Positions 1,456 to 9,575 of a DNA stretch of 64,000 bases are shown piece after piece. Position numbers and translations under genes: made by a program. Origin of the DNA: Arenimonas daejeonensis (GTDB taxonomy: Bacteria; Pseudomonadota; Gammaproteobacteria; Xanthomonadales; Xanthomonadaceae); contig NZ_CP042453.1 of assembly GCF_007993735.1 (NCBI RefSeq), forward strand, positions 1,798,001-1,862,000, read 5' to 3'. The number at the start of each line of letters is the position of its first letter. Positions within the stretch are counted from its first letter, which is position 1. The notes below the pieces were generated by a model. It saw nothing but the letters and a program-made list of their open reading frames with translations, was not told where the DNA came from and made no database searches.

Positions 1456-1815
1456 ATGGTCACGGTTTATGGTCTGGACGCCTGTGATACGTGCCGGAAG
1501 GCGCGCAACTGGCTCAAGCGCTTCGAGCTGGAGCACACGTTCGTTGACTACCGCGCCAACCGCGTGCCGGCCGAGACCCTGAAGACCTGGGCCACGCAGC
1601 TGGGCGGCTGGGACAAACTGATCAACAAGGCCTCCACCACCTGGCGCCAGCTGCCCGAGGGACGCAAGTCGCCGGGCAGCGACCCGGAATGGACCCTGCT
1701 GCTGAAGGAACATCCGGCCCTGGTCAAACGCCCGGTGCTGGTGACCGAAGACGGCACCATCAGCGTCGGTTTCACCGACAATGCCTGGAAACTGCGCTTC
1801 GGGATCAAAAAATGA
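1456..1815 (+). CDS. ArsC/Spx-family reductase-like protein (YffB type)
   Basis: A 119-residue thioredoxin-fold protein of the ArsC family. The N-terminus [16 protein letters not shown] has the redox-type CxxC (Cys10, Cys13), followed by a family-typical [14 protein letters not shown] segment and a C-terminal [16 protein letters not shown] strand. Three starts are possible (GTG 1432, ATG 1447, ATG 1456). I choose 1456 because AGAGGA at 1441-1446 lies nine bases before it and the homologous core begins there. The stop overlaps the dapE start (ATGA), and a YffB-dapE pairing is also known in E. coli, so it is probably co-translated with dapE. Its substrate is unknown; a true arsenate reductase role is not shown. 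Confidence 0.85.
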
Positions 1816-2941
1816 GCGACGTGCTGGCCTTCACCCGCGAACTGATCGCCCGGCCCTCGGTGACACCGGAGGACGCCGGCTGCCAGGCGCTGATCTCGGC
1901 ACGGCTGGCCAAGGCCGGCTTCCGCTGCGAGCAGCTCGATTTCGGCGCGGTGAAGAACCTCTGGGCCACCCATGGTGAGGGCGGCGAGGTGCTGTGTTTC
2001 CTCGGCCACACCGACGTGGTGCCGCCGGGCCCGCGCGAGGCCTGGGCCAGCGATCCCTTCGTGCCCACCGAACGCGACGGTTTCCTCTACGGCCGCGGCG
2101 CCGCCGACATGAAAGGCAGCGTGGCCGCGTTCGTGCTGGCGCTCGAACAGTTTGTCGCCGCGTTTCCGGAACATCCGGGCATCATCGCGCTGCTGCTGAC
2201 CTCGGACGAAGAGGGTGATGCCATCGACGGCGTGCGCCGCGTCGCCGACCATTTCCGCGCCACCGGCCAGCACATCCACTTCTGCATCACCGGCGAACCG
2301 TCGTCGAAGGAAAAACTGGGCGACCTGCTGCGCGTCGGTCGTCGCGGCACACTGTCGGGCACGCTCATCGTGCACGGCATCCAGGCCACGTGGCCTACCC
2401 GGAAAAGGCCCGCAACCCGATCCACCAGGTCATGCCGGTACTGGCCGAACTCGGCGCGCGCACCTGGGACACGGGTTATCCGGAGTTCCCGGCCTCGAGC
2501 TTCCAGATCTCGAACGTGCACGCCGGCACCGGCGCCAACAACGTCATCCCGGGCAGCTGCGAAGTGGTGTTCAACTTCCGCTACAACCCCGGCTGGAAAG
2601 CCGAGGCGCTGGAGCGGGAAGTGGAGACGGTGCTGGACCGCCACGGCCTGGAATACGACCTGCGCTGGCACCGCGGCGGCGAACCCTTCCTCACCGGCGA
2701 GGGCCGCCTGCGCGCCGCGGCACGCGCGGTGCTGGTGGAACAGTGCGGGGAACTGCCGGACGAAAACACCGGCGGCGGCACTTCGGACGCCCGCTTCATC
2801 GCGCCCCTGGGCGCCGAAGTGGTGGAGCTGGGGCCCATCAACGCCAGCATCCACAAGGTGGACGAACGTATTGCCCTGGATGAACTCGAGCGTCTCCCCA
2901 CGCTGTACCGAGCCATCGCCGAGCGACTGCTGTCCGCCTGA
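1812..2941 (+). CDS. dapE: Succinyl-diaminopimelate desuccinylase (frame broken once)
   Basis: DapE is a di-zinc M20-family hydrolase that releases succinate from N-succinyl-L,L-diaminopimelate. Motifs are in order: [10 protein letters not shown] (His66), [10 protein letters not shown] (Asp99), [10 protein letters not shown] (catalytic Glu), [14 protein letters not shown], then GGGTSDARF and [10 protein letters not shown] near the end. The reading frame breaks at 2384-2385: codons read GIQ-ATWPT where homologues have [18 protein letters not shown], which is restored by one extra G in the run. After repair it has 376 residues, the usual length. Since dapE is normally essential, I read the break as a sequencing error. 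It starts by ATGA overlap with the previous gene. Confidence 0.92.
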
Positions 2942-2965
2942 CCTCCGCCATCTCCCCGGTGTGTG

Positions 2966-3399
2966 TCAGGCCGCGGCTTTCTTGAACCAGGCCTGTTCGG
3001 CCGGCTCCGCCACCTTGTTGTCCTTGAGTTCGCGCAGGATGCCCAGCACCTCGCGGTGCACGGCCACCAGGCCTTCGTCACGGGCCTGCCGGGTTTCGTG
3101 ATAGACCACCGCCAGCCACATCGCGATGCTGCGCTGGCGCAGCTGGATCGAGCGGTCGCCGACGCGGCTGGCCGCGGTCGCGGCGACCGGGCCAGGGGGC
3201 GGTACATCGAGGCTTCGTTGTCGCCGTGCAGGTGCGGCTGTGGCAGCACCGCGGCGGCCTGGATCTCGGCGAGGGTCATGTCTGTCGCCTGCTTGCGCTG
3301 TTCCGCATTCAGGGCGAGCACGGCCTGGCGCACTGCGCCGGCCTGTTTCGTTAGCATCCTGCGACGCCATTGCGTCAACAAGCTGATCAAAAGGTCCAT
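2966..3399 (-). CDS. Conserved hypothetical protein (frame broken once)
   Basis: Unrecognised protein of about 144 residues once repaired. It begins [20 protein letters not shown] after a good ribosome site (GAGGTGG, seven bases upstream) and ends in an amphipathic helical part ([16 protein letters not shown]...WFKKAAA). The two halves are in different frames. They join at 3187-3190, where one extra base in a C run gives [20 protein letters not shown]. No signal peptide, catalytic motif or membrane segment is visible; the composition (many Arg, Gln, Ala) suggests a small cytosolic helical protein. It converges on dapE. Function unknown. Confidence 0.6.
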
Positions 3400-3559: not shown

Positions 3560-5937
3560 TCACATTTTGGGCTGGAGCTGCAGGCGGTGTTCGGTGGCCT
3601 GGGGCAGGAAAGGCGTGGCTTCGCCGCGCACCCAGGCTTCGTGGCCGGCGCCCCAGAACGGCGACAGCGGGTGGCCGCTCTGGCCGCCGGGCATGTGGAT
3701 GATGCCGTCGGCCTCGTGGCCCGGGGCCACCACCATGCGCTGGCTGGCCCCGAACTGCGGGCCCTGTACGCGTGGCATGTTGCCGTCGCCGGGCAGCGGG
3801 TCGGCTGGCATGCACAGCCAGGATTTCGCGAACGCCGGCATCGCCCCGGCCATCGGGTGGCAGATCGCCGCGGTGTTGCGCGAACCCCAGGTGCGGGCAC
3901 CGAGCGGGCCGCGGATCTGTCCGCGCACCTCCTGCGCCGCATCGGCCAGCAGCGTTTCCCAGCTGCCGAACTTGCGCGGCAGCAGGTGCGCCGGGCGCTG
4001 CTGCAGCAGCGGCCAGGCCACCGATTCCATCTGCGGCAGGTCGGGCATGACGAAGTCATCGCCCAGCGCCACCTGGGCCGGCGCCAGCAGGCCGTTCTGG
4101 ATGCGCCCGATCACGGCCAGCCGCCAGGCCCGCACCAGCCGGTAGCTGGTGGAGTCCACGCTGGCGTGGCCGTCCCAGGTCGCCGCTTCGTGCGCCAGCG
4201 AACGCAGCGCCTCGTCGGGATTGGTCTTCGCTTCGTCCAGCAGGGCCTGGTGCCAGCGCTTCAGGAACAGCGCACGGTCGTCGAGCTGGATCGCCAGCAG
4301 GTCGGCTTCGGTGAATGATTCCTTCGCGTACAGGCCATCGCGGATCTGCTTCGCCCGCGCACCGTTGGCGTAACCGGCGTCGCCGACCAGCTTCAGCGCC
4401 TCGCCGTCCACGGTGCGGGCGTTCGCGGTCCACAGACGGCCGTCCACGGGATCCACCAGCGCCGGGTTCTCGGTCGGGGACAGCCAGCCGGCCCAGCGGC
4501 AGGCGGCTTCGACCTTCAGTGGCCCGGTGGCGTCGCAGTCGCCGGCGCGTTCGGGCATCTGCGCGGTCAGGCGCCAGGCGATGCGGCCGGTATGGTCGCC
4601 GATCACCAGGTTCTGCGCCGGGATGCCGGCGGTGTCGGCCACGGCCAGGCCGGCATCCAGGTCGGCGGCCCAGGCCATGTCGGACAGGCCGAAGTTCAGT
4701 GCACCCGGCAACTGCGCGGTCCAACGCAGCGCCAGCGACGATTCCCCGTCGAGCTCGGCGGTGATCGGGCCCCAGCGTGTGTCGCGCACCTTCAGCTCCA
4801 CCGGTTCGCCACCCTTCACGCGGATCCATTCGCTGGTGGTGCGCACGGCCGCCTGGCCACCGGGTACGTAATAACGCAGGCGCTGCTCGTCGGCCCAGTC
4901 CACGCGATAGAAATCCAGCCAGTCGCCGTAGCTGTTGGTGAACCCCAGGCCACGCGTCCATTGCTGCCGACGATCACCGCCGGGATGCCGGGCAGGGTGA
5001 AGCCCGACACATCCACCTTGCCGCCGGGTGCGCGGGCATCGGCGTACTGCAGTCGGGCGCGGAACCAGATGTTGGGCGCGCGAAGTCCCAGGTGCATGTC
5101 GTCGGCGACGATGGCACGGCCGTCGGCGGTGAGCTTGCCCGACACCGCGAAATTGTTGCTGCCGGGCGCGGCCGGTTCGGACACCTTGTGGTCGGGGTTG
5201 TCCCAGCTCGTAGGCAGCTTGCGCAGGTCCAGCACGTCCGGGCCGGGCAGCAGTACGTTTCCGCGCGCCTCGCCGACCAGCGGCGCATCCCATTCGCTGC
5301 CGTCGGTGGCGATCAATGCGTACAGCTCAGGCGGAACAGATTCACGGATGCGCCAGAGCGCCAGCTCGCGCGAGTTCGTTTCGTCCTGCAGGTCGAAGAA
5401 CATCGCGTACCCGACCAGCGCGGTGTCGGCCACGGTCCAGGGTTCGGGCTCGGTCTGCAGCAGCAGGTAGGGCCAGGGTTTATTGCGCAGTGCGGCCAGG
5501 CCGGCGTTGACCCCGTCGCGGTAGGCCTCCAGCACCGGCAAGCGGTCGCCGGCGACGTCGGCCAGGCTTTCCTCCAGGCGCGCACGCAGGCGGTGCACGC
5601 GGACCACCTTGTCGCGTTCCACCGCCATCGGACCGAACAGCGCCGACAGCTCGCCCGCGGACGAACGTCGCAGCAGGTCCATTTCGAAAAACCGTTCCTG
5701 TGCGTGCACGAAGCCCAGCGCGCGCGCGGCGTCGGCTTCGTTCGCGGCGGAAACGGTGGCCACGCCCGGGGCGTCGCGTTCGACGGTGGCCTCGGCCGAC
5801 AGGCCGGGCAGGGCACTTTCGCCGTCCAGGTCCGCCAGGCTGCCGCGCCAGGTCCACAGCCCCGCCAGTATCGCCAGCACCCCCAGGATCACGACCACGG
5901 CCAACAGGCGCAGGGCGACACGGAACAGCTTGGGCAT
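3560..5937 (-). CDS. Penicillin acylase-family (S45) N-terminal-nucleophile hydrolase, frame broken once
   Basis: S45 penicillin-amidase-type enzymes are made as a precursor, exported and self-cleaved before a serine that becomes the nucleophile. Residues 1-30 (MPKLFRVALRLLAVVVILGV...) form a signal or membrane anchor. The family motif HAQERFFEMDLLRRSSAGEL sits near residue 95 and the cleavage region is APGSNNFAVSGKLTADG, with Ser of SNN as likely nucleophile. The frame breaks at 4943-4946: a G-run one base short separates SNGRVAWG from FTNSYGDWLDFYRVDW. Repaired length is about 792 residues, normal for the family. The substrate (beta-lactam, acyl-homoserine lactone or peptide) cannot be told from sequence. 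It is divergent from the asnB leader, with only 46 bases between. Confidence 0.85.
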
Positions 5938-5983
5938 GGCGGGCTCGCTTGCGGCGGGTAAGGGACTGTGACTAGGATGGCCC

Positions 5984-6106
5984 ATGTCCTGCCGCCTCGC
6001 CATCGCCCTGAATCTCCGGACCGACCCGATCCGGGCCGGCGGCGACTGCGCGAACAACAACAACGCCAATAACAACAATCGTCCCCGAATGCGGGTCGAC
6101 GACTAG
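5984..6106 (+). CDS. Putative asparagine attenuator leader peptide
   Basis: A 40-residue open frame ahead of asnB, starting MSCRLAIALNLRTDP and containing the run NNNNANNNN (codons at 6053-6079, AAC and AAT), then ending RPRMRVDD at TAG 6104-6106. AGGA lies six bases before the ATG. Nine of 40 residues are Asn and the gene downstream makes asparagine, the same logic as the His-, Trp- or Thr-rich leaders of known attenuated operons. Ribosome stalling at the Asn run when charged tRNA-Asn is low would free the next RNA segment (see the attenuator entry). The peptide itself probably has no other function. No promoter could be assigned: only 46 bases separate it from the divergent acylase gene. 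Confidence 0.82.
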   Translation: MSCRLAIALNLRTDPIRAGGDCANNNNANNNNRPRMRVDD

Positions 6107-6173
6107 GCGCGCTCCACCCACAGCCCCCAGTCCCCGACGGCCCGCACTGACGAAGTGCGGGCCGTCTGCTTTT
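6022..6173 (+). promoter_or_regulatory. Transcription attenuator of asnB (four-segment RNA switch)
   Basis: Four mutually exclusive pairing segments are visible. Segment 1 (6022-6028, CGACCCG) pairs perfectly with 6092-6098 in segment 2, enclosing the Asn codons. Segment 2 (6088-6100) can also pair with segment 3 (6136-6148) over 11 of 13 positions, one being G-U. Segment 3 pairs perfectly with segment 4 (6154-6166) to form the terminator. With plentiful Asn-tRNA the ribosome reaches the stop codon at 6104 and covers segment 2, so 3:4 terminates. A ribosome stalled on Asn codons leaves 2 free to form the 2:3 antiterminator. Pairing was worked out by eye; no folding energy was calculated. Confidence 0.8.
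6136..6173 (+). terminator. Rho-independent terminator in the asnB leader
   Basis: A perfect 13-bp stem (GACGGCCCGCACT, loop GACGA, AGTGCGGGCCGTC) is followed by TGCTTTT. It ends 33 bases before the asnB start codon and 29 bases after the leader stop codon, the place expected for an attenuator. The 5' arm is shared with the antiterminator. Confidence 0.85.
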
Positions 6174-6206
6174 GTGCCCCCGAAAAACCGCCCAAGGAGT
6201 TTCCCC

Positions 6207-7876
6207 ATGTGTTCCATCCTCGGTCTGCATGACCCCCGCCCCGGCGCCGACGTGATGCCGCTGCGGCCGCTGGCCCTGTCGCTGTCGGCGCGCCAGCGCC
6301 ACCGCGGCCCCGACTGGTCCGGCGTGTACGCCGAACCGCGCTGCCTGCTGGTGCACGAGCGCCTGGCCATCGTTGATCCCGCCGGCGGCGCCCAGCCGCT
6401 GCGTTCGGGCGACGGGCGGCTGGCGCTGGCGGTGAACGGCGAGATCTACAACCACCGCGAGCTCGAACGCGCGTCCACAGTGGCTTATGAGTTCCAGACC
6501 GGTTCGGACTGCGAGGTCATCAACGCGCTGTACCTGGAACACGGCCCGGCCGGCGTGGCGAAGCTCAACGGCATCTATGCCTTCGCGTTGTGGGATGCCG
6601 CCGAAGGGCGCCTGGTCATCGCCCGCGATCCACTCGGCGTGTGCCCGCTGTACTGGGGCCACGACGCCGACGGCCGGCTGTGGGTGGCGTCGGAAATGAA
6701 GGCGCTGGCGCGGCATTGCGCGGATGTCTCCGCATTCCCGCCGGGCCATGTCTACGACAGCGCCACCGGCGAGCTCACCTTCTTCCACGAACGCGACTGG
6801 CGCGACTACGACGCCGTGCAAGGCAAAACGGTGTCGAGGCAATCTCTGCGCGAAGGCTTCGAGCAGGCCGTGCACCGGCAGATGATGACCGACGTGCCCT
6901 ACGGCGTGTTGCTCAGCGGCGGCCTGGATTCCTCGCTCGTGGCCGCCTGCGCCGCGCGTTTCGCCCGCCAGCGCGTGGAGGAGGACGATGCGGCCGAAGC
7001 CTGGTGGCCGCGCCTGCACAGTTTCGCCATCGGCCTGGAAGGTTCGCCCGACCTGGCGGCGGCCGAAGTAGCGGCGAAAGCGCTGGGCACCGTGCACCAC
7101 GGTTTCACCTACCGGTTCGACGAAGGCCTGGACGCGCTGCCCGACGTCATCCGCCACGTCGAGACCTACGACGTGACCACCATCCGCGCCTCCACCCCGA
7201 TGTACCTGCTGGCCCGGCGCATCAAGGCCATGGGCGTGAAGATGGTGCTCAGCGGCGAGGGCAGCGACGAGATCTTCGGCGGCTACCTCTATTTCCACAA
7301 GGCGCCGAACGCGCGCGAATTCCACGACGAATGCGTGCGCAAGCTCGGCGCCTTGCACCAGTTCGACTGCGCCCGCGCCAACAAGGCGATGATGGCCTGG
7401 GGTGTGGAAGCGCGCGTGCCGTTCCTGGACCTGGAGTTCCTCGACCTTGCGATGGGCATGGATGCACAGGCCAAGATGGCCGGCGGCGGCCGCATCGAGA
7501 AGGCGGTGCTGCGCGAGGCCTTCGAGGGCGCACTGCCGAAGGAAATCCTGTGGCGCCAGAAGGAACAGTTCAGTGACGGTGTCGGTTACGGGTGGATCGA
7601 CGGGCTCAAGGCCCATGCCGAGAGCTATGTGAGCGACACGATGATGGCGCAGGCCGCACTGCGTTTCCCGGTCAACCCGCCGCAGACCAAGGAAGCGTAC
7701 TGGTACCGCGAACTGTTCGAACGCGAGTTCCCCGGCGAGGCCTGCGCGCGCACCGTGCCCGGCGGCAAGTCCATCGCCTGTTCGTCGCCGGCGGCGATCG
7801 CCTGGGACCCGGCCTTCGCCAAGGCCGCCGATCCTCGGGACGCGCGGTCGCGGGGGTGCACCAGGCCCCGGTCTGA
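6207..7876 (+). CDS. asnB: Asparagine synthase B, glutamine-hydrolysing (frame broken near the end)
   Basis: Makes asparagine from aspartate, glutamine and ATP. The ATG at 6207 has AAGGAG seven bases upstream and places Cys2 (MCSILGLHDPR) as the glutaminase nucleophile, which must be exposed by Met removal. The N-terminal Ntn glutaminase domain (about 1-200) is followed by the ATP-pyrophosphatase domain with loop LLSGGLDSSLVAACAA and LSGEGSDEIFGGYLYFHKAP. Near 7833 a C run one base short shifts the frame; with repair the tail reads DPSGRAVAGVHQAPV, as in AsnB homologues, stopping at 7876 with 556 residues. Unrepaired, the frame runs on into the next gene. It is regulated by the upstream Asn attenuator. 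Confidence 0.95.
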
Positions 7877-7931
7877 GCCGGACGGCCCGATCGCCTATGA
7901 TGGCCGGGCAGTCGCCCAGGGGAGGGTGTGG

Positions 7932-9575
7932 ATGCGGAAGTTCTTCAACGAACTCAGGCGCCGCGGCGTGCTGTCGGCGATCGCCTATTACGCAGCCGGC
8001 GGCTGGCTGCTGGTCCAGGTCGCGACCCAGGTGCTGCCGTTCTACAACGTGCACGACTGGGTGGTGCGGGGGTTCATCGGCGCGGTGGTGGCGGGCTTCC
8101 CGGTCGCCATCGTCGTGGCCTGGTTCTACAAGTGGACGCCGGGCGGCTGGTTGCGCGAGGTCGATGTCGAGTCCGAGTCATCCGAGCCACCGAAGGACAT
8201 CCCGTTCGCCACCGATGCGTCGATCGCGGTGCTGCCCTTCGACGACATGAGCGCGCAGAAGGACCAGGGCTATTTTTCCGACGGCCTGGCCGAGGAGGTG
8301 CTGAACCTGCTGGCCCAGGTGCCGCAGTTGCGGGTGATCGCGCGCACGTCCTCGTTCTCGTTCAAGGGCCAGACCGCGGACATCGGCAGGATCGCCAGGG
8401 CGCTGAACGTCGCCAACGTGCTCGAAGGCAGCGTGCGCAAGTCCGGCGACAAGCTGCGCGTCACCGCCCAGTTGATCCGCTCGAGCGACAGTTCGCACCT
8501 GTGGTCGCAGAACTACGACGTCGAGTTGACCGACGTGTTCGAGGTACAGGACCAGATCGCCCGCGCCGTGGTCGCCGCGCTCAAGGTGAAGCTGCTCCCC
8601 GGCCAGCAGGGGATCCATGCGCACCGGCCGCGCGTACCCGAGGCCTATGACCATTACCTGCGCGGACAGGATGTGTTCCGGCGCGGCCGCTACGACGACA
8701 TCCAGCGCGCCGTCGAAGCCTTCGAGCGCGCCGTCGAACTGGACCCGGGGTATGCCGCGGCCTTCGCCGGCCTCGCCAACGCCCGCGGCGCGGTGGCCGA
8801 TTTCGCGCCGGACCCGGAAGCGCGCGCGGCGGGCAAACGTTCGGCGGCCGCCGCGGCCGAGCGGGCGATCGTGCTCGCCCCCGACCTGGCCGACGGTTAT
8901 GTCGTGCGCGGCCGCATGCGCATGGCCCTGCTGCGGGACTGGGCCGGCGCCGAGGCGGATTTCCGGCAGGCCCTGGCCGTCGAGCCGAACCGGACCGAGG
9001 TGCTGATTCCTTATGCCCTGTTGCAGAACAACCTGCTGCATACCGGGCAGTCGCTGAAGGCGGTGCGCCGCGCCCTTGATGCCGACCCGCTGTCCTGGGT
9101 GGCGTGGATGCTGCAGGGCGCCGTGCTGGCACGCGCCGGCCGGGTGGAGGACAGCCGGAGTTCGTTCGAGCGTTCGCTGCAGATCAGCCCGGCCTCCAGC
9201 TACAGCCGCTATGAACTGGGCTGCCTGGAGCTGGTGCATGGACGGCCCGAAGTCGCGCTCACGCACTTCAGGCTGGCGGGCGAGGCCTTCGGCCAGGCCG
9301 GCATCGCCATGGCCCAGCACACGCTGGGCAAGCCTCAGGAATCACAGGCCGCGCTGGACGAACTGGAAACGAAGTACGCCACCGGCTTCCTGTTCCAGAT
9401 CGCCCAGGTTCATGCCTGGCGTGGCGACCACGATGCCGCCTTCGCCTGGCTCGAACGCGCCTGCAACGAACACGATGCCGGCATCACCCGCCTGCGCAGC
9501 GACCTGGTGCTGGACCGGATCAGGGACGATCCGCGTTTAGCAGCCCTGGTGAAGAAGGTCGGGTTTCCGGACTGA
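7932..9575 (+). CDS. TolB-like/TPR inner-membrane protein
   Basis: 547 residues after a strong ribosome site (GGAGGG, five bases before ATG 7932). The N-terminus MRKFFNELRRRGVLSAIAYY leads into two membrane segments (residues about 15-60). It is followed by a TolB/FlgO-like domain (SIAVLPFDDMSAQKDQGYFS...NVANVLEGSVRKSGDKLRVT) and then several tetratricopeptide repeats to the C-terminus (for example YDDIQRAVEAFERAVELDPG). Proteins of this make-up are numerous in xanthomonads, often as accessory or regulatory modules related to adenylate-cyclase-associated proteins. No catalytic domain is visible here. The apparent fusion to AsnB in the raw sequence is an artefact. Role unknown. Confidence 0.85.
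   Translation: MRKFFNELRRRGVLSAIAYYAAGGWLLVQVATQVLPFYNVHDWVVRGFIGAVVAGFPVAIVVAWFYKWTPGGWLREVDVESESSEPPKDIPFATDASIAVLPFDDMSAQKDQGYFSDGLAEEVLNLLAQVPQLRVIARTSSFSFKGQTADIGRIARALNVANVLEGSVRKSGDKLRVTAQLIRSSDSSHLWSQNYDVELTDVFEVQDQIARAVVAALKVKLLPGQQGIHAHRPRVPEAYDHYLRGQDVFRRGRYDDIQRAVEAFERAVELDPGYAAAFAGLANARGAVADFAPDPEARAAGKRSAAAAAERAIVLAPDLADGYVVRGRMRMALLRDWAGAEADFRQALAVEPNRTEVLIPYALLQNNLLHTGQSLKAVRRALDADPLSWVAWMLQGAVLARAGRVEDSRSSFERSLQISPASSYSRYELGCLELVHGRPEVALTHFRLAGEAFGQAGIAMAQHTLGKPQESQAALDELETKYATGFLFQIAQVHAWRGDHDAAFAWLERACNEHDAGITRLRSDLVLDRIRDDPRLAALVKKVGFPD

Follow-up and report, generated by a model that had tools for sequence, protein, structure and literature searches.

A conserved leader-peptide attenuator of the asparagine type predicted upstream of asnB

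Leader-peptide attenuators are known for the trp, his, thr, leu, ilv and phe operons, and the 2004 survey of proteobacterial attenuators by Vitreschak and colleagues reportedly treats the branched-chain, histidine, threonine, tryptophan and phenylalanine cases. By the evidence of its sequence, the leader upstream of asnB that we describe here is a real and conserved attenuator of this kind, with asparagine as its amino acid, and it is new to us as an asparagine case. Like the attenuators of the amino-acid operons, it combines a short ORF rich in codons for the amino acid that is produced, an antiterminator and a terminator that exclude each other, and a biosynthetic gene downstream; it differs from them in having asparagine as the signal, no conserved pairing between segments 1 and 2 (1:2), and a predicted start of transcription at the leader AUG. 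The start at the AUG, which we infer from the spacing of promoter-like boxes, and the apparent lack of a segment 1 would be its two unusual traits.

Two described systems come close in other respects. According to the available part of PMC7298713, the transcript of the trp attenuator of Sinorhizobium meliloti (rnTrpL/peTrpL) begins at the leader ATG, the 5' end of rnTrpL being the ATG of trpL; the same arrangement is predicted for the asnB leader, and the S. meliloti system has Trp codons, precedes trpE(G) and belongs to an alphaproteobacterium. The leader uORFC-8-2, located before cysS in Rhodobacterales, resembles the asnB leader in its codons for a single amino acid, in the read-through predicted upon stalling, and in a downstream gene that restores the corresponding aminoacyl-tRNA, but differs in its amino acid (cysteine), its gene (a tRNA synthetase) and its alphaproteobacterial hosts, as far as the accessible portion of that paper goes (PMC8632094). 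In a literature search we recognised no Asn leader peptide or asnB attenuator, though subscription journals and supplementary files may contain one; within the available portions of the two papers, 'asparagin' is absent from PMC2965389 and PMC8632094, 'asnB' is absent from PMC8632094, and 'asn' appears once in PMC2965389, within a reference.

In the window (the whole 64-kb stretch of DNA that was analysed; all features given here lie on its + strand), the leader ORF spans 5984..6106, with an ATG start, 40 codons (40 aa; translation MSCRLAIALNLRTDPIRAGGDCANNNNANNNNRPRMRVDD) and a TAG stop. Its control codons, NNNNANNNN at 6053..6079, are Asn in 8 of 9 positions, and the 40-codon leader with this run is present just as a preliminary description of the locus had it. 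With up to 3 mismatches allowed, the 8-of-9 AAY pattern occurs a single time in the 64-kb window and a single time in the 3.03 Mb genome, and the AAY run appears in none of 100 shuffles of the window. At the level of sequence, this is a short ORF rich in the codons of the regulated amino acid, and its translation is predicted.

The leader ORF overlaps segment 2, the 5' arm of the antiterminator (6088..6100), whose core TGCGGGTC at 6090-6097 begins 14 nt ahead of the stop codon. Segment 3 (6136..6148) is shared between the 3' arm of the antiterminator and the 5' arm of the terminator, and segment 4 (6154..6166) forms the 3' arm of the terminator. Pairing is found at 11 of 13 positions between segments 2 and 3 (2:3) and at 13 of 13 between segments 3 and 4 (3:4), in agreement with what had been claimed for both helices. 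Directly 3' of the 13/13 helix stands TGCTTTTGTG, and the T-rich tail TGCTTTT (6167..6173) is the predicted termination point. Sequence and covariation both place an intrinsic terminator between the leader ORF and the structural gene (termination itself being predicted), and pairing, covariation and folding point to an antiterminator that excludes it. None of 200 shuffles folds as well as the 223-nt leader (z −3.27), and 3 of 1000 shuffles of the segment-2 region equal its 2:3 duplex. When the complete RNA is folded to equilibrium, 3:4 is favoured over 2:3 (0.76 vs 0.17), and antitermination must therefore be kinetic.

The gene behind the terminator supplies the same amino acid: it is asnB, encoding glutamine-hydrolysing asparagine synthase B (6207..7831; NF006949, 812 bits against a cut-off of 499), with a probable ribosome-binding site, AAGGAG (6194..6199), 7 bases ahead of its ATG at 6207. 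The normal frame is lost at about 7831, some 14 codons short of the expected end (window 7815-7880), where the window and the relative locus L002 differ by one base in length; in the alignment with L002 the expected C-terminal residues carry on in another frame. This frameshift is probably an assembly error (the genome is 86% complete). Elsewhere in the window (1689-3101), a gene that we read as dapE-like is seemingly split over two frames, as ORFs 1689-3101 and 2390-2941, which would fit further indel errors.

The sharing of the leader by relatives had been set beforehand as a test of the preliminary description, and the leader proved common. A search for AsnB in 61 genomes gave 30 loci, in 24 of which an Asn-rich ORF and a terminator precede asnB (the terminator of L026 escaped the first rule but was identified afterwards). 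Two loci were uninformative for lying at contig ends (L008, and L012, whose contig begins inside asnB) and were dropped before the first alignment. The leader is missing in the remaining four, namely L025, from one genome of the window's family that has asnB without it, and L028, L029 and L030, from other families of the order. Among 80 named AsnB loci, an Asn-rich ORF stands before asnB in 40, as judged by a loose rule of at least 3 Asn in 10 codons. The titles of 39 of these come from the window's order, L083 being titled only Pseudomonadota, and they include Xanthomonas, Stenotrophomonas, Lysobacter, Luteimonas, Thermomonas, Pseudoxanthomonas, Rhodanobacter, Dyella and Frateuria; the leader is absent from L062, L077 and L092, AsnB loci with titles from other phyla. 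The loose rule is weak when used alone, since 11 of the other 40 named loci, which have no leader unit, also pass it (with at most 5 Asn in 10 codons, many of them in AT-rich genomes). R1, a covariance model that we built from 24 leaders of the window's order, matched all 39 named leader loci to which it was applied (L061 was left out) at E up to 1e-6.

With R1 at E up to 0.01, matches were obtained in 383 of 395 family genomes, the weak part of them including other terminators. At E up to 1e-6 the model matched 139 of 299 genomes of the order, comprising, by our count among the matches listed, 71 of the window's family (f1), 3 of f2 and 1 of f9, and by subtraction 64 of f12; the one in f9 is, by our reading, not an Asn leader, and the others fall in three families of the order. 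Among 369 genomes of the class, 4 match at E up to 1e-8, all in the window's family and none outside it, a count in which unrelated Asn leaders elsewhere could be missed, since R1 was built from this order and the large searches used stricter filters. Within the window's genus (27 genomes), an AsnB ortholog of at least 70% identity is present in 17, of which 16 give a strong R1 match (1.5e-13 or better); the sole exception, G022, offers merely 164 odd-looking upstream bases at a contig end. None of the 10 genomes without the ortholog has a strong match, and none has one below 2e-5. In this genus the genomes without asnB are thus also without the leader, and the loss of asparagine synthesis could easily be followed there.

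A single match was found when R1 was run on 45 AsnB loci outside the main set (the other 40 named loci with L008, L025 and L028-L030). This locus, L129 (2013-2178), comes from a metagenome-assembled genome titled Rubrivirga sp. and has a GTG-initiated ORF with LIRNLTNANRN (4 Asn in 8 codons), followed by a GC-rich terminator before asnB. Its 2:3 pairing is no better than that of shuffles in a duplex test (688 of 1000 as good); L129 is a possible Asn attenuator outside the order.

Covariation of the stems in relatives, the other test set beforehand, was found for both 2:3 and 3:4. We used alignment A3, which holds 99 leaders (96 distinct) matched by R1 at E up to 1e-6 and superseded a 116-row alignment (A2) containing reverse-strand terminator matches. 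Because A3 was fitted to 3:4 and not to 2:3, the test of 2:3 is the fairer of the two. By measures that sequence relatedness inflates, the 3:4 terminator had 94.8% of cells paired against 24-53% in slid controls (96 distinct leaders) and 156 double changes against 10-45, and the 8-pair 2:3 antiterminator had 85.7% of cells paired against 31-40% and 27 double changes against 1-16. Two further counts on A3, of pairs altered on both sides and of additional pair types, showed no excess over shuffles for either stem. When segment 2 partners were swapped between leaders, cognate 2:3 duplexes averaged −20.1 kcal/mol, compared with −17.1 for permuted partners, and none of 5000 permutations equalled them; the cognate energy was reached by 6% of composition shuffles of segment 2. 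In 6 of the 96 sequences, a joint change in segments 2 and 3 turns G-C into A-U, with G retained in segment 4, which leaves a weaker U-G pair in the terminator; since 2:3 stays Watson-Crick at the expense of 3:4, these sequences argue for selection on 2:3 itself. When mapped onto a quickly built tree of AsnB proteins (95 rows, without L159 and L160), double switches per tested pair amounted to at least 3 to 8 changes in the terminator and 2 to 5 in the antiterminator, counts that the poor resolution of such a tree can inflate. In the common register, 2:3 is weak in L076, L078, L072 and L026.

In the leader peptide, Asn accounts for 594 of 3163 codons across 93 leaders. The other parts of the peptide vary among clades (RVDD, ASLPRAGD, NNRARPMRVCD, NANRWRARA), which indicates that the codons, rather than the peptide, are kept. 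It could be supposed that the ORF encodes a functional Asn-rich small protein with a terminator of its own, with asnB transcribed from a separate promoter and the hairpins having no regulatory part. The conserved position of the ORF, and its ending ahead of a strong terminator, would suit such a protein; yet the variable non-Asn residues, a length ranging from 20 to 46 aa, and a covarying antiterminator to which this explanation gives no role make it very improbable. As a separate observation, AAT is favoured among the leader Asn codons, at 269 of 594 in the 93-leader set as compared with 48 of 305 within asnB itself at the set's named loci.

The 93-leader set excludes L158 and L160, in which the promoter box is absent by the rule used. 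(L160, in G317, holds what look like tandem leader copies, two identical 127-base copies flanking a run of N, which we took as a scaffold artefact.) In 70 of the 93 leaders the stop codon lies 14 nt past the start of the segment-2 core, so that the placement noticed in the window, by which a terminating ribosome would cover segment 2, holds across relatives; the first Asn codon of the cluster lies a median of 34 nt ahead of the core. We then folded the leaders with a ribosome masked in place, taking one at the first Asn codon to cover 13 nt downstream of the A-site codon. With the ribosome there and segment 4 not yet made, the probability of 2:3 exceeded 0.5 in 89 of 93 leaders; with the ribosome at the stop codon, that of the 3:4 terminator exceeded 0.5 in all 93. 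Judged on geometry, a ribosome at the stop would cover segment 2 and one at the control codons would leave it free.

No such regularity was seen for segment 1. The preliminary description had called the attenuator complete in the four-segment trp sense, on account of a classic 1:2 helix between 6022-6028 and 6092-6098. All 7 of its 7 pairs exist, but in 37 of 100 shuffled leaders the pairing with the segment-2 core is at least as good. Across the 93 leaders the mean best 1:2 pairing was −11.00 kcal/mol against −10.95 for shuffles, and 5 of 93 beat 95% of their own shuffles. As 1:2 pairing thus shows no excess over shuffles, the window's 7-bp helix is likely a coincidence, and we dropped segment 1 as a conserved part; a conserved 1:2 helix protecting segment 2, as in attenuators of the trp type, was not found in this set.

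Upstream of the leader, the window has a −35-like box, TTGCGG (5949..5954), beginning 35 nt upstream of the leader ATG, and a −10-like box, TAGGAT (5973..5978), 5 bases ahead of it, which would place the start of transcription at the A at 5984. A TTGC/TTGT/TTTAC box beginning 35-38 nt upstream of an in-frame start (ATG in 91, GTG in 2) was found in 93 of 95 leaders, as compared with 4 of 199 other in-frame start codons, the latter count serving as the control because the start codon was picked by the −35-like box and the composition is partly selected. From the best −10-like hexamer to the start codon there are 6 or 7 bases in 85 of 93 leaders and 5, the window's spacing, in 5 of 93; 89 of 93 have C at −1. 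The hexamers fit poorly, with 3 or 4 of 6 positions matching in 92 of 93, and a generic sigma-70 scan of the window reported no promoter at the 5949-5978 boxes. In these 93 of 95 leaders the box spacing would put the start of transcription at the leader AUG, and the leader is probably translated from such a transcript.

An AUG start and a strong terminator, both predicted, would together release an RNA like rnTrpL (as described in the available part of PMC7298713), and the terminated leader might accordingly act mainly in trans, as a small RNA or a leaderless mRNA, whether or not it also attenuates asnB. We regard this as a slim prospect, given that the leader accompanies asnB in the window's genus and that a large ORF starting with Met-Cys lies within about 260 nt downstream of the leader loci on the tree (95 rows, a set that does not include L159 and L160). 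Still less credible is a metabolite-binding riboswitch or a T-box that senses Asn or uncharged tRNA directly, with the ORF incidental: T-boxes of Asn specificity are known in Firmicutes, but the Asn codons and the distance from stop to segment 2 are conserved, no Rfam family, T-box or other known leader, matches at gathering score in window 5000-9000, and a relaxed scan of 5900-6260 gave only ten weak matches.

The state of asparagine metabolism bears on the signal. Profiles of AsnRS, AsnA and GatB were scanned in 41 relatives, among them the window's own genome, and 25 genomes of the window's genus were scanned for GatB. AsnRS was over its cut-off in 39 of the 41, the window's genome included (we judged by the cut-off; a looser E-value rule also matches all 14 control genomes). 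AsnA was found in 1 of 41 relatives and not in the window's genome, where absences lean on relatives given its 86% completeness. GatB was found in 9 of 41 (8 of them over the cut-off), with no case among the 25 genomes of the genus. With AsnRS present and AsnA and GatB not found, free Asn made by AsnB should set the charging of tRNA-Asn, to which an attenuator of this kind responds.

Taken together, the presence of AsnRS where no AsnA or GatB was found, the conserved Asn-rich leader, the covarying 2:3 and 3:4 stems and the placement of the stop support the proposal of the preliminary description that asnB is controlled by an asparagine-responsive, ribosome-mediated transcription attenuator, a reading to which we assign a probability of roughly 0.9. 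The predicted parts of this model are that the leader is translated, that the ribosome stalls, that asparagine supply changes the outcome and that transcription begins at the AUG. RNA polymerase would start at or beside the leader AUG, and a ribosome would translate the nascent leader. With ample Asn-tRNA, the ribosome would get to the stop codon and cover segment 2 (6088-6100), the 3:4 terminator would form, and transcription would stop near 6173. When Asn-tRNA is scarce, the ribosome would stall at the Asn codons and leave segment 2 free to pair with segment 3 ahead of the synthesis of segment 4, and the polymerase would read into asnB.

Somewhat short of even odds, in our estimate, is the narrower version of the asparagine attenuator in which it is leaderless and three-segmented, with a transcript that begins at the AUG and is without a conserved 1:2 helix, and with an untranslated leader that defaults to the antiterminator. 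The default would follow from the lack of a conserved 1:2 helix (with no ribosome and before segment 4 is made, 2:3 exceeds 0.5 in 72 of 93 leaders). If this version is true, the leader would sense both the supply of Asn-tRNA and the capacity of the cell to translate leaderless mRNA, and read-through would be the failure state, opposite to the trp archetype. The conserved promoter-like boxes ahead of the leader AUG make leaderless attenuation testable on a large natural set.

If the asparagine attenuator is true in its general form, asparagine would join the amino acids known to be under leader-peptide attenuation, in relatives such as Xanthomonas, Stenotrophomonas, Lysobacter, Rhodanobacter and Dyella. 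The attenuator would then be a feedback route for asnB, apparently the main asparagine synthetase in those relatives.

Several smaller observations concern genomes without AsnB and leaders for other amino acids. Nine genomes of the window's genus that are without an AsnB ortholog (G001, G009, G011-G014, G020, G024 and G025) are candidate asparagine auxotrophs, unless a paralog takes its place; eight of them (all but G025) were scanned and are also without AsnA and GatB, with AsnRS over its cut-off. The nine GatB-matching genomes among the 41 scanned, all of this order, have no ortholog of AsnB either (they give no match, or one of E 1e-39 or weaker at best), as if they made Asn-tRNA by transamidation. 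Nine of the weak R1 matches (L183-L191) were read as possible second Asn targets, and in our judgement not one of them has an Asn leader ahead of an asparagine gene. Four of them (L183, L184, L185 and L187) have a leader with LVLVLITSPTGAGRTG or a near variant and a terminator before an ilvC-like gene. This branched-chain leader of the window's family is similar to the asnB leader in architecture and terminator, and differs in its Leu/Val/Ile codons (LLVLVLITSPTGAGRTG) and in preceding a gene that, by our own reading of the ORF, is ketol-acid reductoisomerase-like.
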